A stretch of DNA of 64,000 nucleotides from Rudaeicoccus suwonensis (GTDB lineage: Bacteria; Actinomycetota; Actinomycetes; Actinomycetales; Dermatophilaceae). The notes beneath the pieces are model-generated. The model had not been told where the DNA came from, did not search any database, and saw only the letters and a list, made by a program, of their open reading frames with translations. A program made the translations under genes and the position numbers. The stretch lies in assembly GCF_007829035.1 (NCBI RefSeq), contig NZ_VIVQ01000001.1, positions 1,054,001 to 1,118,000 on the forward strand, written 5' to 3'. This document shows positions 9,534 to 18,863 of the stretch, piece after piece; position 1 is the first letter of the stretch, and each line of letters begins with the position of its first letter.

Positions 9534-10010
9534 TCACTGTGTTCCGGCGGCGACCACCAAGGGTTGGGTGCGATGCGGCACGAGTTCGGCGAGGGCGATC
9601 ACGGTCGAGGTGCGCAGCACCATCCCGTTGCCGACGACCTGGTCGATGACGCGCTGCAGATCGGTGTTGTCACGCGCGACGACCCGAACGAACAGGTCGC
9701 CGTCACCGGTGATGGTGTGCACCTCCAGCACCTCCGGAATCGCCGACAGGTGATCGACGACCTTCTCGTGGCCGCGGCGCTGCTGAATCTCCAACGAACA
9801 GAAGGCCATCACCGGATACCCGAGCGCGGCCGGCGAGACGGTCGGCGCCAGTGTGCTGATGACACCGCGCTCGATCAGCCGGTCGAGTCGCGCCTGCACG
9901 GTGCCGCGCGCCACCCCTAGTTCGCGCGAGGCGCCCAGCACGCCGATCTGCGGCTGTGCCGCCAGCAGGGACAGCAGGCGGGAGTCGAGGGCGTCGATCG
10001 ATTGCGACAT
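9534..10010 (-). CDS. Lrp/AsnC-family transcriptional regulator
   Basis: A 158-residue regulator with an N-terminal winged helix (DALDSRLLSLLAAQPQIGVLG, then GVARGTVQARLDRLIERGV near 35-52) and a C-terminal RAM ligand-binding domain (VLEVHTITGDGDLFVRVVA near 95-115). It is divergent from hppD with about 110 bp between, so it most likely controls 4-hydroxyphenylpyruvate catabolism, with an aromatic amino acid as effector (inference). The start is ATG 10010, not the upstream ATG 10019, because a -10 box TACAAT ends 7 nt before it. Confidence 0.9.
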   Translation of the reverse strand: MSQSIDALDSRLLSLLAAQPQIGVLGASRELGVARGTVQARLDRLIERGVISTLAPTVSPAALGYPVMAFCSLEIQQRRGHEKVVDHLSAIPEVLEVHTITGDGDLFVRVVARDNTDLQRVIDQVVGNGMVLRTSTVIALAELVPHRTQPLVVAAGTQ

Positions 10011-10028
10011 ACAGCACATTGTATGGCG
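10005..10028. repeat. Inverted pair of the CGNCATAC/GTATGNCG octamer
   Basis: CGACATAC and GTATGGCG face each other across 8 bp, overlapping the lrp start codon and its -10 box. One of three such pairs in the window. Confidence 0.7.
10018..10023 (-). promoter_or_regulatory. -10 box TACAAT, leaderless start of lrp gene
   Basis: On the minus strand TACAAT is followed by 7 nt and then the ATG at 10010. It lies within the octamer pair, so a protein bound there would block this promoter. Confidence 0.55.
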
Positions 10029-10064: not shown

Positions 10065-11324
<1,260 letters not shown>

Positions 11325-11491: not shown

Positions 11492-12889
11492 ATGGCTCGG
11501 GTACTTGTCACAGGCGCATCGGGATACATCGGCGGGCACCTCGTCGCGGCGCTGCTGCGCGACGGTCAACAGGTGCGGGTGCTGACCCGCCACGCGGACG
11601 GTCTGCGCGCCGAGCCGTGGGTTGGCCAGGTCGAGGTCGTCGAAGGCGATGCGTCCGCCGCCGCAGATTGCCGTCGCGCGCTCGCGGGGGTGGAGGCGGC
11701 GTATTACCTGCTGCACTCGATGGATGGCGGTAGTGACTTCGTCCGTCGCGAGCGCGACATGGCGTCGACCTTCGCGTCGGCCGCGGAGTATTCACGTGTG
11801 GCCCGGATCGTCTACCTCGGTGGGCTTCATCCAGGCGGCGAATTGTCCGAACACCTCGGCTCACGTGTCGAGGTCGGCAAGGTCTTCCTCGCCGGAGCGG
11901 TGCCTGCTGTGGTCTTCCAGGCCGGTGTCGTGCTCGGAGCCGGCTCGGCGTCCTTCGACATGCTGCGCCATCTGACCGAGCGACTTCCGGCAATGGTGGC
12001 ACCGCGATGGGTGCAGAACAGGATCCAGCCGATCGCGATCGCGGACGTGTTGCACTACCTGGTCGGTGCCCTGCGGTTGCCGGCCGACGTCAACCGCACC
12101 TTCGACATCGGTTGTCCCGAGGTGCTCACCTATGCGCAGATGATGCGCCGGTATGCCGCAGACGTCGGTCTGCGTCGCCGATACGTGGTGACGGTGCCGG
12201 TGCTGACGCCGCGACTGGCGGGACTGTGGATCGATCTGGTCACGCCGATCTCCTCGGGCATCGCCCGGCCGCTGGTCGGAAGTCTGGTGCACGACGCCGT
12301 ATGCCGCGAGGACGACGTGCTCGAAGCGATCGGCCCGCCGCCGGGCGGCCGCACCGGCTTTGACGAGGCGATCGCGGCGGCAGCGGCGGACATCGACCCG
12401 CTGCGCTGGTCGCGCACGCTGGGGCGCACGGCCGCGATCGTGGCCGCTTCTGCGGTGACCGGTTCGGTGCTGACCAACCCCGGATCGGCGTGGTACACCG
12501 GACTGCGCAAGCCCGCCTGGCAGCCGCCGCCGGTGGCCTTCCCCCTGGTGTGGACATCGCTGTACACCTCGACGGCGGTCGCGACGGCCCTGGCCAGCGC
12601 GGACCTTGCCGAGGACGGCAAGCGTGCTGCAAGCAATTCGCTGGAGCGCGCGCTCGCGGTGAACATGGCGCTCAACACAGCGTGGACTGCCATCTTCTTC
12701 CGCGCGCACAAACCCACACTTGCCACGGTCGAATGCGCCGTGCTGTGCCTCAGCACGGTGGACCTGGCACGCCGGGCCGGGGTGACCGGTGGCGGCAAGG
12801 CTGCCACGATCGGCGCGTATGCCGCGTGGTGCGCGTTCGCGGGAACCCTGTCGGCCGGAGTGGCGCGGCTCAACCCCGGCTGTAACTAA
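11492..12889 (+). CDS. NmrA-like SDR fused to a TspO/MBR membrane domain
   Basis: A 465-residue two-domain protein. Residues 1 to about 290 form an extended/atypical short-chain dehydrogenase fold: GASGYIGG (8-15) binds NAD(P), followed by YYLLHSM and VYLGGL. Residues about 310-465 match TspO/MBR (TSPO family): WYTGLRKPAWQPPP, then NMALNTAWTAIFF and five hydrophobic helices. TspO proteins bind tetrapyrroles and sterols; the SDR half resembles NAD(P)H-binding proteins found with carotenoid or lipid genes. The fusion suggests a membrane-tethered oxidoreductase handling a hydrophobic ligand. That role is inference. It stands alone between two terminators. Confidence 0.87.
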   Translation: MARVLVTGASGYIGGHLVAALLRDGQQVRVLTRHADGLRAEPWVGQVEVVEGDASAAADCRRALAGVEAAYYLLHSMDGGSDFVRRERDMASTFASAAEYSRVARIVYLGGLHPGGELSEHLGSRVEVGKVFLAGAVPAVVFQAGVVLGAGSASFDMLRHLTERLPAMVAPRWVQNRIQPIAIADVLHYLVGALRLPADVNRTFDIGCPEVLTYAQMMRRYAADVGLRRRYVVTVPVLTPRLAGLWIDLVTPISSGIARPLVGSLVHDAVCREDDVLEAIGPPPGGRTGFDEAIAAAAADIDPLRWSRTLGRTAAIVAASAVTGSVLTNPGSAWYTGLRKPAWQPPPVAFPLVWTSLYTSTAVATALASADLAEDGKRAASNSLERALAVNMALNTAWTAIFFRAHKPTLATVECAVLCLSTVDLARRAGVTGGGKAATIGAYAAWCAFAGTLSAGVARLNPGCN

Positions 12890-14342: not shown

Positions 14343-15308
14343 ATGACGGACCGCCCCTCTGGTTGGTATGACGACCCCGACAGTCCCGACCAGTTGCGTT
14401 ACTGGGACGGCATCCTGTGGTCCGATCGCACGATGCCCAAGGTCAAGCCGGGGCTGGAGGACTCCCACATCGGCGACCCGCGCGAACAGTGGGATCGGGA
14501 GCACCAGGACGACGAGCAGCACGTACCGTATGGCGCCGCGCCCTTCCGGGGTCAGCAGCCGGGCCGGCCGACCGGTTGGGGTCCCGGCGCGGGCTCGCAC
14601 TACGACCCTCGTCAGGGGCACTACCCCCAGGTGCAGGCGACCTACCCACCGCTCCCGGTGCCGACGACCCCGGACGGTGAGCAGCTGTCGGGCTGGTGGC
14701 GACGACTGGTCGCTTTCTGCATCGACGGCATCATTGTTTTCACGGTCGCGGTGGCGCTTGCGTGGCACTGGCTGCAGCCGTGGGTGCACACGGTCACGAC
14801 GTGGTACGACAGCGTGGTGACTGCTGCGGAGAATCACCAGTCGCAGCCTCCGACACCATCCGGTTTCTACGACGTTCCGTGGCAGTACCCGGTCGTCGTC
14901 TTTCTGATCTACCTGGTCTACGAAGTCTGTCTGACGGTATGGCGCGGGCAGACTCTCGGAAAGATGGTCACCGGTATCCGTGTGCGCGGTGCCGACTCGA
15001 CCGCGCCGCCCTCGTTGCGGGCCGCCACGATTCGCCTGTGCATCAAGCAGGGGGCTGTCGCGGTCCGCGGGATTCTGGTGCTGTCGACCGTGGGGTTGCT
15101 GTTCCAGGTGCTCGACGGGTTGGTGCCATTGGGCGATGCGCGTAAGCAGGCGATTCACGACAAGGGCGCCAAGACGTATGTCGTCCGGACGAATCCGACA
15201 AGCGGACACTATCCGCAGCAAGGCGGCCCGTCGCCATACAACAACCAGTCGTCGTATGGGAGTCAGCAGCAGCCGTACGACGGCGGCCAGCCGCCATACG
15301 GCCGGTGA
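14343..15308 (+). CDS. RDD-family membrane protein with N-terminal DUF2510 domain
   Basis: A 321-residue protein. Residues 6-30 (SGWYDDPDSPDQLRYWDGILW) are a DUF2510 motif, a short module common at the N termini of actinobacterial membrane proteins. A Pro/Gly/Tyr-rich linker follows to about 115. Then comes an RDD domain with WWRRLVAFCIDGII (first Arg-Asp helix), a second helix near 185-200 and GQTLGKMVTGIRV. The C terminus is a disordered Gln/Tyr/Pro tail. Some RDD proteins are Na+/H+ antiporters but the function here is unknown. Confidence 0.88.
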   Translation: MTDRPSGWYDDPDSPDQLRYWDGILWSDRTMPKVKPGLEDSHIGDPREQWDREHQDDEQHVPYGAAPFRGQQPGRPTGWGPGAGSHYDPRQGHYPQVQATYPPLPVPTTPDGEQLSGWWRRLVAFCIDGIIVFTVAVALAWHWLQPWVHTVTTWYDSVVTAAENHQSQPPTPSGFYDVPWQYPVVVFLIYLVYEVCLTVWRGQTLGKMVTGIRVRGADSTAPPSLRAATIRLCIKQGAVAVRGILVLSTVGLLFQVLDGLVPLGDARKQAIHDKGAKTYVVRTNPTSGHYPQQGGPSPYNNQSSYGSQQQPYDGGQPPYGR

Positions 15309-15458: not shown

Positions 15459-16676
15459 TCAGTCGCGAGCCGGCAGAATGCGCCCGCTGACCTCGCCGAG
15501 TGCGATGCGCCCGCCGCCCACCGCAGGCGCTGTCGCGGTGATCGTGACCTCGTCGCCGTCCTGCAGGAACGAACGCTCGGTGCCGTCCTCGAGCCGGATC
15601 GGTTCACTGCCGCTCCAGGACAGTTCGAGCAGGCTGCCACGTTGCTGCGGCTCGGGGCCGGACACCGTGCCGCTGGCGAACAGATCGCCGTTGCGCAGTC
15701 GCGCGCCGTTGACGGTGAGGTGCGCGAGCATCTGGCCGGGTCCCCAGTACATCTGCGCGTACGGCGGCTGCGACACCAGGGTCCCGTTGAGACGCACCTC
15801 CAGTGCAAGGTCGAGACCGAAAGCGCCCTCAAGGCCGCGCAGATAGGGCAGCGGTTGCGGGTCTTGCTGTGGCAGAGCGATTCTGGCCTCCTTCAGCGCA
15901 GCCATCGGTGTGATCCAGGCGCTCAGCGACGACGCGAAGGACTTGCCGAGGAAGGGCCCGAGCGGGACGTACTCCCACGCCTGCAGGTCACGTGCCGACC
16001 AGTCGTTGAACAGCCCGACGCCGAAGATGTGCTCGTCGGCCCGGTCGACGCCGACACGTTCACCCAACTCGGTTTCGCCGCCGACGACGAAACCAACTTC
16101 GGCTTCGATGTCGAGACGAACACTCGGACCGAACTGTGGTGCCGCGTCGGCGGGGGTTTTGCGCTGACCGACGGGCCGGACGATGTCGGTGCCGCTGACC
16201 ACAACAGTGCCGGCGCGACCGTGGTAACCGATCGGCAGGTGTTTCCAGTTCGGTGTCAGTGCCGCGCCGTCGGGACGGAAGATCTTGCCGACGTTGGTCG
16301 CGTGGTGCTCGCTGGCGTAGAAGTCGACGTAGTCGGCGACATCAACCGCAAGGTGCAGCTCCACGGCGTCCAGCGGGCGCAGGTGCGGTCGGACGAAGTC
16401 ACGGCGCCGGTCGTCGCTCAGCAGTTGCTGCAGCCAACGACGCGCTGCCTGCCACGACGAGGGCCCCTGCTCCAGGAAGGCGTTCAGTGACGGCGTGCTC
16501 CACGCGCGAGCCCACTTTCGGTGGCCGTCGGCAGCTGCCAGCCCGGCGATGCCGACGACGTGACCACCCAACCGCGAAACGACCTGAGGACTCCAATCCT
16601 GAGCGCTGGCAACGGCATACGGGAGGTTGGTGAGACCCCACAGATCGTCGGTGAGTGCGAACGGGTCAGCAGTCAT
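15459..16676 (-). CDS. fahA: Fumarylacetoacetase
   Basis: Hydrolyses fumarylacetoacetate to fumarate and acetoacetate, the last step of tyrosine catabolism. At 405 residues it matches the two-domain bacterial enzyme: an N-terminal domain with DYVDFYASEHHA near 118-129 (metal Asp and catalytic His), GYHGRAGTVVVSG near 155-167 and the metal-binding run DIEAEVGF and FNDWSARDLQAWE. Its ATG overlaps the stop of the upstream unknown gene (ATGA), so the two are translationally coupled. No maleylacetoacetate isomerase is present nearby. Confidence 0.95.
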   Translation of the reverse strand: MTADPFALTDDLWGLTNLPYAVASAQDWSPQVVSRLGGHVVGIAGLAAADGHRKWARAWSTPSLNAFLEQGPSSWQAARRWLQQLLSDDRRRDFVRPHLRPLDAVELHLAVDVADYVDFYASEHHATNVGKIFRPDGAALTPNWKHLPIGYHGRAGTVVVSGTDIVRPVGQRKTPADAAPQFGPSVRLDIEAEVGFVVGGETELGERVGVDRADEHIFGVGLFNDWSARDLQAWEYVPLGPFLGKSFASSLSAWITPMAALKEARIALPQQDPQPLPYLRGLEGAFGLDLALEVRLNGTLVSQPPYAQMYWGPGQMLAHLTVNGARLRNGDLFASGTVSGPEPQQRGSLLELSWSGSEPIRLEDGTERSFLQDGDEVTITATAPAVGGGRIALGEVSGRILPARD

Positions 16677-17494
16677 CAGTCCTCAATCAGGCCGAGTGTG
16701 GCCAGGTCGTTGATCGGGTCGAGCACGTCACAGCAACCGTATGACGTGAAGCTGTTGCGCACGTTGACGGCGCGAGCTTCGGAGAACTCGGTGATGTCGG
16801 CGGCGATCGCAGAGGTGTCGCGGCGCTCCAGTTGTGTGGCGACATCGTCGCCGTCGAGCGCAGCGGCGGTCGCGAGCACGACGTTGAGGAAGCCGAACTG
16901 GTCCTCCGTGCGACCGTCCGCGGTCACCGTGCTGGTGACCGCATGGTGCAGACCGCCGGTGAGCTTGAACGGGAGGCCGAGGCGCACGCACTCGCCGATG
17001 AACTGGGCCACGTCGGTGCTCGAGGGCACGGGGTTGGCCGGTGAACTGCCGGTGCGCAGCTTGGCGATGACCTGCAGGGGCGAGGATGCAAGATCCGGGA
17101 GCACGGACACCCCGCTCGGGCCGGCCGGCACCTCGACCGCGAGTGGCACTCCGAGCGTGAGGGCGTCCCGCCAGCCGTCGACAGCAGGCACCTCGAGGCC
17201 GGCGAGCGCGTGGCTCGGCGAGGCCGTCACGGCCTCGCCCGCAGCCACGATGTCGGCGATGGCGGTTCCCGCGCGACCTACGACGCCGATGACGAGCCCG
17301 CCACCGTCGGCCAACGCATCGTCGACCAGGGCGGGCGGAAGCAGCAGCGGTCCGACGAAATCCGACGCGGGGGTGCCGCGGCGTCGCGCCCGCCGCTCGA
17401 TAGCCTCGTCGAGCGGGAAGTTGCCGGGCGGAAAGACTGCGGCGTCATCGAGCAGGTGAGCGAACAGCGCGCGGGTGGGAAGCCTGGGTGACAT
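16676..17494 (-). CDS. Conserved protein of unknown function, coupled to fahA
   Basis: A 272-residue soluble protein that I recognise only as an actinobacterial conserved hypothetical found beside homogentisate-pathway genes. Regions likely to be conserved are DDAAVFPPGNFPLDEAI (about 15-31), PFKLTGGLHHAV (about 173-184), FGFLNVVLA and SYGCCDVLDPINDLATLG at the end. Motifs such as VIAKLRTG and KLTGG could suit a TIM-barrel or phosphate-binding fold, but I cannot assign one. It is divergent from hmgA and its stop overlaps fahA's start. The ATG at 17494 is favoured by a -10 box 7 nt upstream. It could supply the isomerase step missing here; that is a hypothesis. Confidence 0.75.
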   Translation of the reverse strand: MSPRLPTRALFAHLLDDAAVFPPGNFPLDEAIERRARRRGTPASDFVGPLLLPPALVDDALADGGGLVIGVVGRAGTAIADIVAAGEAVTASPSHALAGLEVPAVDGWRDALTLGVPLAVEVPAGPSGVSVLPDLASSPLQVIAKLRTGSSPANPVPSSTDVAQFIGECVRLGLPFKLTGGLHHAVTSTVTADGRTEDQFGFLNVVLATAAALDGDDVATQLERRDTSAIAADITEFSEARAVNVRNSFTSYGCCDVLDPINDLATLGLIED

Positions 17495-17501
17495 GGCTTC
17501 C

Positions 17502-17507
17502 ACCGTA
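17502..17507 (-). promoter_or_regulatory. -10 box TACGGT, leaderless start of the fahA operon
   Basis: TACGGT on the minus strand ends 7 nt before the ATG at 17494. Confidence 0.5.
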
Positions 17508-17621
17508 CTGAAGGGCCGGTGGTGCTTCTGCCCGCACCGCCGGGCGGCGCCACCTTCGTTGTCGACCGGCTGCATTAAGGTTTTGCGGGTGCCCTTCGCG
17601 GCACGGGAAGGGATGAGAACA

Positions 17622-18863
17622 ATGGCGTTCTACCGATCCATGGGACTGTTGCCCAGACAGCGGCATACAGCTCTGCGCACCCCCGAGGGCGGAGTCTTCT
17701 ACGAGGAGCTCATGGGGGAGGAAGGCTTCTCCAGCGACTCCTCGTTGCTCTATCACCGCGGTCTGCCGTCAGCGATCAGCGATGCGCGGGCGTGGGAGTT
17801 GGGCACCTCGCTGGACACGATCCCCAACCATCCGCTGCTGCCGCGGCACCTGAAACTGCACGACCTGTTCACCGAGGACGTCTCGCGCGTCGACGCCGTC
17901 ACGGGACGGCGTCTCGTGCTCGGCAACGGCGACGTGCGCATCTCGTATGTCGTCGCCGGCGCCGTCAGCCCGTGGTACCGCAACGGCATCGGTGACGAAT
18001 GCGTGTATGTCGAGCGTGGTCACGGACGTGTCGAGACGGTGTTCGGCGCGTTCGATGTGGCCGAGGGTGACTACGTGATCATCCCGCGGGCGACGACGCA
18101 CCGGTGGATTCCGCTGGTCGCGGGCGACGAGGGCTATTCGGAGCCGTTGCGGGCGTACGCGATCGAGGGCAACTCGCACATCGCCCCGCCGAAGCGGTAC
18201 CTCTCACGCTATGGGCAGCTGCTTGAGCACGCGCCGTACTGCGAGCGTGACCTGCGGGGGCCGCAGGGGCCATTGCTCGCCGAAGACATTGGTGCTGATG
18301 CAAATTCGCCGACCGAGGTCTATGTCAAGCATCGTGGCAACGGTCCGGGATCCAGCGGCGGCATCGTCGGCACGATCTACACCTACCCCTACCACCCGCT
18401 CGATGTCGTGGGCTGGGACGGTTGCCTGTACCCCTACGTCTTCAACGTCGCAGACTTCATGCCGATCACCGGCAAGGTGCATCAGCCGCCGCCGGTTCAC
18501 CAGGTCTTCGAGGGCACGAATTTCGTGGTGTGCAACTTCGTGCCGCGCAAGGTGGACTACCACCCGCAGTCGATCCCGGTCCCGTACTACCACTCCAACG
18601 TCGACAGCGACGAGATCATGTTCTACGTCGACGGCGACTACGAGGCGCGCAAAGGCTCGGGCATCGGCAAGGGGTCGATCTCGTTGCACCCGGGTGGCCA
18701 CGCACACGGCCCGCAGCCCGGCGCGTACGAAAAGTCCATCGGCGTCACCGAATTCGACGAACTCGCGGTCATGGTCGACACCTTCCGGCCGATGGAGCTC
18801 GGCGAGGCCGCACGGGCGGTCGATGACGGGAAGTATGCCTGGAGCTGGGTCGGCGGCCGCTGA
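17622..18863 (+). CDS. hmgA: Homogentisate 1,2-dioxygenase
   Basis: Opens the ring of homogentisate to maleylacetoacetate with Fe(II) and O2. The 413-residue cupin-type protein shows the iron-ligand region YHSNVDSDEIMFYVDGDY (about 325-342) and the following His in LHPGGHAHGPQPG (about 356-368). The start is ATG 17622, preceded by GGAAGGG; an upstream ATG at 17613 sits too close to that site. A TAAGGT box at 17576-17581 could be its promoter, giving a leader of about 35 nt. It is divergent from the fahA operon, so pathway genes share one control region. Confidence 0.95.
   Translation: MAFYRSMGLLPRQRHTALRTPEGGVFYEELMGEEGFSSDSSLLYHRGLPSAISDARAWELGTSLDTIPNHPLLPRHLKLHDLFTEDVSRVDAVTGRRLVLGNGDVRISYVVAGAVSPWYRNGIGDECVYVERGHGRVETVFGAFDVAEGDYVIIPRATTHRWIPLVAGDEGYSEPLRAYAIEGNSHIAPPKRYLSRYGQLLEHAPYCERDLRGPQGPLLAEDIGADANSPTEVYVKHRGNGPGSSGGIVGTIYTYPYHPLDVVGWDGCLYPYVFNVADFMPITGKVHQPPPVHQVFEGTNFVVCNFVPRKVDYHPQSIPVPYYHSNVDSDEIMFYVDGDYEARKGSGIGKGSISLHPGGHAHGPQPGAYEKSIGVTEFDELAVMVDTFRPMELGEAARAVDDGKYAWSWVGGR

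Follow-up and report, generated by a model that had tools for sequence, protein, structure and literature searches.

Maleylacetoacetate is a cis-enedione acid, and in the described enzyme that isomerises it, MaiA (HmgC, of the GST zeta type, TIGR01262), the thiol of glutathione adds to the substrate and is released again once the bond has rotated. In actinobacteria, which generally lack glutathione, a mycothiol-dependent maleylpyruvate isomerase performs a similar reaction, turning a maleyl keto acid from the cis to the trans form. For Bacillus anthracis (PMC4457819) and Bacillus thuringiensis (PMC6193087) the relevant passages report no identifiable maleylacetoacetate isomerase gene and call the fate of maleylacetoacetate unclear; they describe hppD, fahA and hmgA in one operon and name there no gene like the one reported here. 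In Rhodococcus globerulus cells HmgA and HmgB were found, HmgC being cited in the text concerned only as a general step (PMC11889516). In two Rhodococcus strains an enoyl-CoA hydratase encoded near fahA was named Mai, and the accessions of hmgA and fahA of Rhodococcus R7 skip one number between them (PMC4591350). We infer that the skipped accession takes the place which the gene described here, called X, holds in other Rhodococcus loci. A literature search covering few subscription journals gave no paper that assigns the X family.

The window analysed here, a stretch of 64,000 nucleotides from Rudaeicoccus suwonensis, contains hppD, hmgA and fahA, which bears out the reading of the first-pass annotation. 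The 4-hydroxyphenylpyruvate dioxygenase (hppD, 10119..11324, plus strand) scores 431 bits on TIGR01263 (cut-off 277) and the fumarylacetoacetase (fahA, 15459..16676, minus strand) 417 bits on TIGR01266 (cut-off 375). The homogentisate 1,2-dioxygenase (hmgA, 17622..18863, plus strand, 413 aa) is of a short type, which reaches 32.4 bits on PF04209 (cut-off 21) and stays well under the cut-off of TIGR01015 (53 vs 511 bits); this short HmgA lineage travels with X. Gene X (16676..17494, minus strand) encodes 272 amino acids from an ATG at 17494 to a stop at 16678-16676, a start which its homologues favour over an upstream ATG at 17575 (299 aa). It overlaps the start of fahA by one shared base (the A of its TGA is the A of the fahA ATG) and is divergent from hmgA across 127 bp (17495..17621), both as first described; the gap presumably holds the promoters of both genes. 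The GC content of its three codon positions (0.74/0.52/0.85) matches the expectation for a coding gene in high-GC DNA, and X is single-copy in its genome (3.83 Mb, 99.95% complete).

X matched no family in Pfam or NCBIfam (the latter searched up to E 1), and scans of all 38 members of alignment A1 in the same two collections yielded nothing beyond chance matches of single members. A sequence search against the PDB found no relative, and the X profile against PDB sequences gave only chance matches to ribosomal S3. X is a real, conserved and pathway-bound gene; its conservation together with its neighbour fahA in other phyla excludes chance.

The isomerisation is the step for which the pathway has no gene. 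As had been proposed for the window, maiA is missing: TIGR01262 has no match in the whole 3.83-Mb genome, nor any over its cut-off in 246 actinomycete genomes or in 46 X-bearing genomes or records, with control genomes positive in both surveys. On the Kovacikia plasmid there are weaker GST-like matches, none above 87 bits where the cut-off is 171, and a GST route may serve the isomerase step there. On an Acinetobacter (proteobacterial) plasmid fahA and maiA are adjacent. A plasmid of Paroceanicella profunda (L156, also proteobacterial) carries an hmgA-fahA pair with no annotated maiA within an 11-kb stretch. A mycothiol-dependent isomerase elsewhere in the genome had also been named as counter-evidence, and such an enzyme may exist: the genome encodes four mycothiol-isomerase-like MDMPI_N proteins, two of which pass the broad TIGR03083 (52.5 and 90.5 bits, cut-off 50), and none of the four is encoded in the X/fahA operon.

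The distribution of X follows that of fahA. X homologues occur in 42 of 59 genomes of the same family, and fahA adjoins X in 29 of the 30 same-family loci fetched. When true FahA is taken as a protein over the TIGR01266 cut-off, 39 of the 59 genomes have both X and FahA (one of them, G058, with only a remnant of X), three have X without FahA (G012, G035, G049), four have FahA without X (G011, G019, G024, G028) and 13 have neither, a co-occurrence with a Fisher p of 2.5e-7 that is inflated by relatedness. In the phylum set of 246 genomes X was found in at least 14, a lower bound with 10 first-look candidates scored per genome. True FahA occurs in 32, of which 27 pass the cut-off and five more have E 3.2e-78 or better, and these 32 include 13 of the 14 genomes with X.

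Eighty X loci of named genomes, picked by the patterns DDAA[VIL]FPP[GA] or FK[LA]T[GA]GLH[HR], were examined for their flanks, where fahA was present in 72, hmgA in 70 and hppD in 14, so that the link of X with fahA and hmgA is closer than that with hppD. In 71 of the 80 fahA lies at most 130 bp downstream of X, and two of the eight loci without fahA (L104, L110) stop at a contig edge just beyond X. On plasmids fahA was adjacent to X in all eight loci first read, and in ten of ten with Tsukamurella and a second Priestia included; these loci span Actinomycetota, Bacillota (Priestia megaterium, L035) and Cyanobacteriota (Kovacikia minuta, L034). The gene order hmgA-X-fahA is frequent and occurs in Rhodococcus, Pseudonocardia and Tsukamurella; in it X is flanked by the genes for the maleylacetoacetate-forming and the fumarylacetoacetate-consuming enzyme. 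The full row is hppD-hmgA-X-fahA in Tsukamurella, where X was identified by HMM (E 1.1e-61 or lower), and hppD-X-fahA-hisC-hmgA in Priestia aryabhattai, and two Streptomyces plasmid loci carry X-fahA without a nearby hmgA. One alignment-based scan of genome contigs gave at least 564 relatives and a single-sequence pattern scan of genome contigs none; tblastn misses distant X, the Tsukamurella gene having been found by HMM only and a degenerate copy in G287 having been missed. The gene-neighbourhood survey, in which X tracks fahA and X-bearing genomes are without maiA over the curated cut-off, thus strongly supports the pathway role suggested in the first-pass annotation.

X is not found wherever FahA is. 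In the phylum set 19 of the 32 true-FahA actinomycete genomes, eight of them large genomes of one genus, are without X and also without maiA over the cut-off. tblastn with a Streptomyces X was negative in all 19, and a renewed search of 14 of them with profile A2 found none with X, the absence in the other five resting on the first scan and tblastn; in these 14 together with five genomes of the same family, the A2 search recovered only the remnant in G058. This remnant (L186, G058:C1) is a C-terminal piece of about 25 profile positions between intact fahA and hmgA, and represents a natural loss of X. In G019 and G024, like G058 close relatives that have lost X, fahA and hmgA face each other directly, and the row in G254 is hppD-hmgA-fahA; a genome can thus retain hmgA and fahA in the absence of both X and maiA. 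In FahA genomes of this kind the isomerase step is done otherwise or bypassed. X is dispensable in some lineages, which is still tolerable for an isomerase because mice without zeta GST bypass the step non-enzymatically in a glutathione-dependent manner. Cyanobacteria generally make glutathione. The absence of glutathione, which had been offered as the reason for an alternative enzyme, therefore explains only part of the pattern: X is also carried by a cyanobacterial plasmid, and several actinobacteria have hmgA and fahA and neither X nor maiA over the cut-off.

Structure prediction, also proposed earlier as a check, gave a confident TIM barrel. The AlphaFold2 model of X, made with 110 aligned rows, has a pLDDT of 96.1 and a pTM of 0.93, and its strands and helices alternate in an eightfold barrel. 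Foldseek of the model against the PDB gave weak E-values (best 7e-4). In the VIA list, where missing fold families were not counted as evidence, DeoC-type enzymes and designs built on their scaffold, most of them recognised by title, fill the top 36 rows (Z 12.9-14.9); the best match is 5c2x (Z 14.9, rmsd 3.7 A over 207 residues), and the rows that follow are other barrels with Z of 12.0 or less. The closest solved fold to X is thus the DERA-type TIM barrel of DeoC (DERA, TIGR00126). The two would also have lysines in comparable motifs on beta 6 and beta 7, KxRTG and FKxTxG in X and KTSTG and FKPAGG in DeoC. An hhalign comparison of the X profile with 23 DeoC sequences was not significant (probability 0.4%, E 0.15), and its weak segment pairs K145 of X with K167 of DeoC and K177 with K201, which we take to be the functional lysines of DeoC. 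X differs from DeoC in having Gly-x-Cys255 where beta 8 of E. coli DeoC ends in Gly-Ala-Ser-Ser, in the lack of a deoxyribose-phosphate context and in showing no significant sequence or profile similarity. Membership of the DeoC family is not claimed, the profile comparison having failed and Pfam and NCBIfam having given no match; what is predicted is an aldolase-like barrel, whose link to DeoC is by fold only.

In the 110-row alignment D17, A18, A19, F21, P22, P23, A31, G48, E121, K145, R147, T148, P157, T179, G181, H183, G201, R246, G253, C255 and P260 are invariant, and K177 is lysine in 107 rows. In the 80 loci picked by pattern the conservation of K177 and H183 is partly built in by the search patterns, and C255, K145 and R147 lie outside them. 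Lys145 (codon 17060..17062, minus strand), the proposed Schiff-base lysine, belongs to the K-x-R-T-G motif of beta 6, Lys177 (16964..16966, minus strand) to the F-K-x-T-x-G-L-H motif of beta 7, and Cys255 (16730..16732, minus strand), the proposed nucleophile, to the Y/F-G-x-C motif at the end of beta 8. According to the predicted secondary structure E121 stands at the end of beta 5 and K145 and R147 at that of beta 6, T179 and H183 lie at or just after the end of beta 7 and C255 comes after beta 8, and in the model E121, K145, R147, T179, H183 and C255 would lie on the catalytic face of the barrel. A chaperone for the pathway had been considered as the other possible role of X; the predicted fold and the invariant residues point to an enzyme instead.

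With 23 further homologues added, a set of 141 rows gave, less three duplicates, 138 distinct copies; the fragmentary X of G049, G058 and G294 was left out. Of the 125 copies that adjoin fahA, 123 retain both K145 and C255, compared with 8 of the 11 copies elsewhere (Fisher p 0.004, inflated by the relatedness of the copies); two copies at contig edges, counted apart, retain both as well. All five copies with a loss come from lower-scoring genomes, so that the true loss rate is above that of the top-scoring sets. Two of them, L217 (G113:C8:84416-85321) and L218 (G287:C87:9741-10637), adjoin fahA yet have lost K145, H183 and C255, and may be decaying or re-purposed copies, which fits decay and also a non-catalytic role. 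Within the genus of L218 X is intact in one genome and absent from another, which looks like ongoing decay. Away from fahA, L202 has lost K145, K177, H183 and C255. Both full-length copies from genomes without FahA are altered at C255, which is Ser in L183 (G012) and Thr in L184 (G035), the latter with K145R, R147H, K177I and H183K as well. The L184 gene sits after a gene for an F420-dependent LLM oxidoreductase and may therefore have another job.

Taken together, we consider it reasonably probable that X is a maleylacetoacetate cis-trans isomerase which works without a thiol cofactor and belongs to a family unrelated to MaiA. Of the proposal of an alternative isomerase, the survey supports the pathway role; the activity itself is deduced from the position of the gene, the missing step and the conserved residues. 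HmgA would open homogentisate to maleylacetoacetate (cis), X would turn this into fumarylacetoacetate (trans), and FahA would split the latter into fumarate and acetoacetate. In X, R147 and H183 may bind the carboxylates of the substrate and K145, perhaps with K177, may polarise the conjugated ketone, possibly as an iminium. C255 would then attack the cis double bond, rotation would follow about the single bond so formed, and the thiol would be released, C255 thus standing in for the glutathione of MaiA. That X founds a new family of glutathione- and mycothiol-independent isomerases on an aldolase-type barrel, with covalent catalysis by a Schiff-base lysine and an internal cysteine, is a more tentative proposal, which we put at somewhat below even chances.

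X would share with MaiA the reaction, the place in the pathway and the position next to fahA. Unlike MaiA, it has no TIGR01262 match, no glutathione site is expected in it, and its predicted TIM barrel differs from the thioredoxin-like and helical GST domains of MaiA. With mycothiol-dependent maleylpyruvate isomerase it would have the type of reaction in common, but it has no PF11716 or TIGR03083 match, a barrel fold and a proposed cysteine of its own.

The alternative that survives best, though we regard it as unlikely, is that X is a tautomerase, C-C hydrolase or aldolase-type enzyme that removes a by-product, for instance maleylacetoacetate in a succinyl or adduct form. The aldolase-like barrel with its two conserved lysines is compatible with such a role, C255, H183 and E121 could make a hydrolytic set, and a clearing enzyme agrees with the lineages that do without X. 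However, cleavage is already provided by FahA, encoded beside X nearly everywhere, and the isomerase is the sole step that would then be left without a gene.

It is rather improbable that the isomerisation is carried out by a mycothiol-dependent enzyme encoded elsewhere, or by free mycothiol, with X as an accessory or scaffold for HmgA or FahA. The four MDMPI_N proteins, two of them over TIGR03083, and the lineages that have hmgA and fahA without X fit a mycothiol route, but no MDMPI gene lies in the operon and X also occurs in Bacillota and Cyanobacteriota, neither of which is known to produce mycothiol. An accessory X is suggested by the degenerate genes that persist beside fahA, and it has a precedent in HmgX of Aspergillus fumigatus, described as an accessory factor that works together with HppD and is found alongside maiA (PMC3203155); HmgX, compared with X by description only, is likewise an unnamed protein of similar length from a tyrosine-breakdown cluster. 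The invariant polar residues at strand ends, and a C255 that is changed where FahA is absent, suggest catalysis by X instead.

Known maleate isomerases use cysteines, as X is proposed to do. We consider it very unlikely, however, that FahA cleaves the cis compound to maleate and acetoacetate and that X then acts as a maleate cis-trans isomerase: in maleate the two conserved lysines would find no ketone, and X matches no known family, even if a maleylacetoacetate hydrolase path to maleate is mentioned for some Bacillus (PMC4457819). That the crotonase-type Mai named in Rhodococcus (BCP1) is the isomerase and X something else can hardly hold, since, although AII08877.1 is given as Mai, an enoyl-CoA hydratase-isomerase (PMC4591350), a crotonase-like gene is present in only 12 of the 80 X loci and not in the window, an occurrence on which a crotonase was rejected as the general isomerase, and X is nearer to fahA and far more constant.

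X thus probably represents a new family of enzymes that catalyse a known reaction. If so, it would fill the isomerase gap in many Actinomycetota, in Priestia and in some Cyanobacteriota, provide a thiol-free cis-trans isomerase and imply that a reaction of tyrosine breakdown in humans was invented independently, and hundreds of genomes would be re-annotated, given the number of relatives in the contig scan. The family suits this gap in many Gram-positive degraders; X alone leaves the Bacillus cereus group unsolved, as the operon there was described without such a gene.

Some other genes of the window may be mentioned. An Lrp/AsnC-type regulator gene (9534-10019, minus strand) is divergent from hppD, and Lrp/AsnC genes are found near hppD also in Tsukamurella and Priestia; the encoded protein likely regulates the pathway. 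A gene for an RDD and DUF2510 membrane protein (14343-15308, plus strand) is convergent with fahA, and similar ORFs with a WYDDP-type start adjoin fahA in L187 and L188 and X in L184. In the ORF at 11492-12889 (plus strand) an NAD(P)-binding epimerase-like domain and a TspO/MBR domain are fused, which looks unusual.
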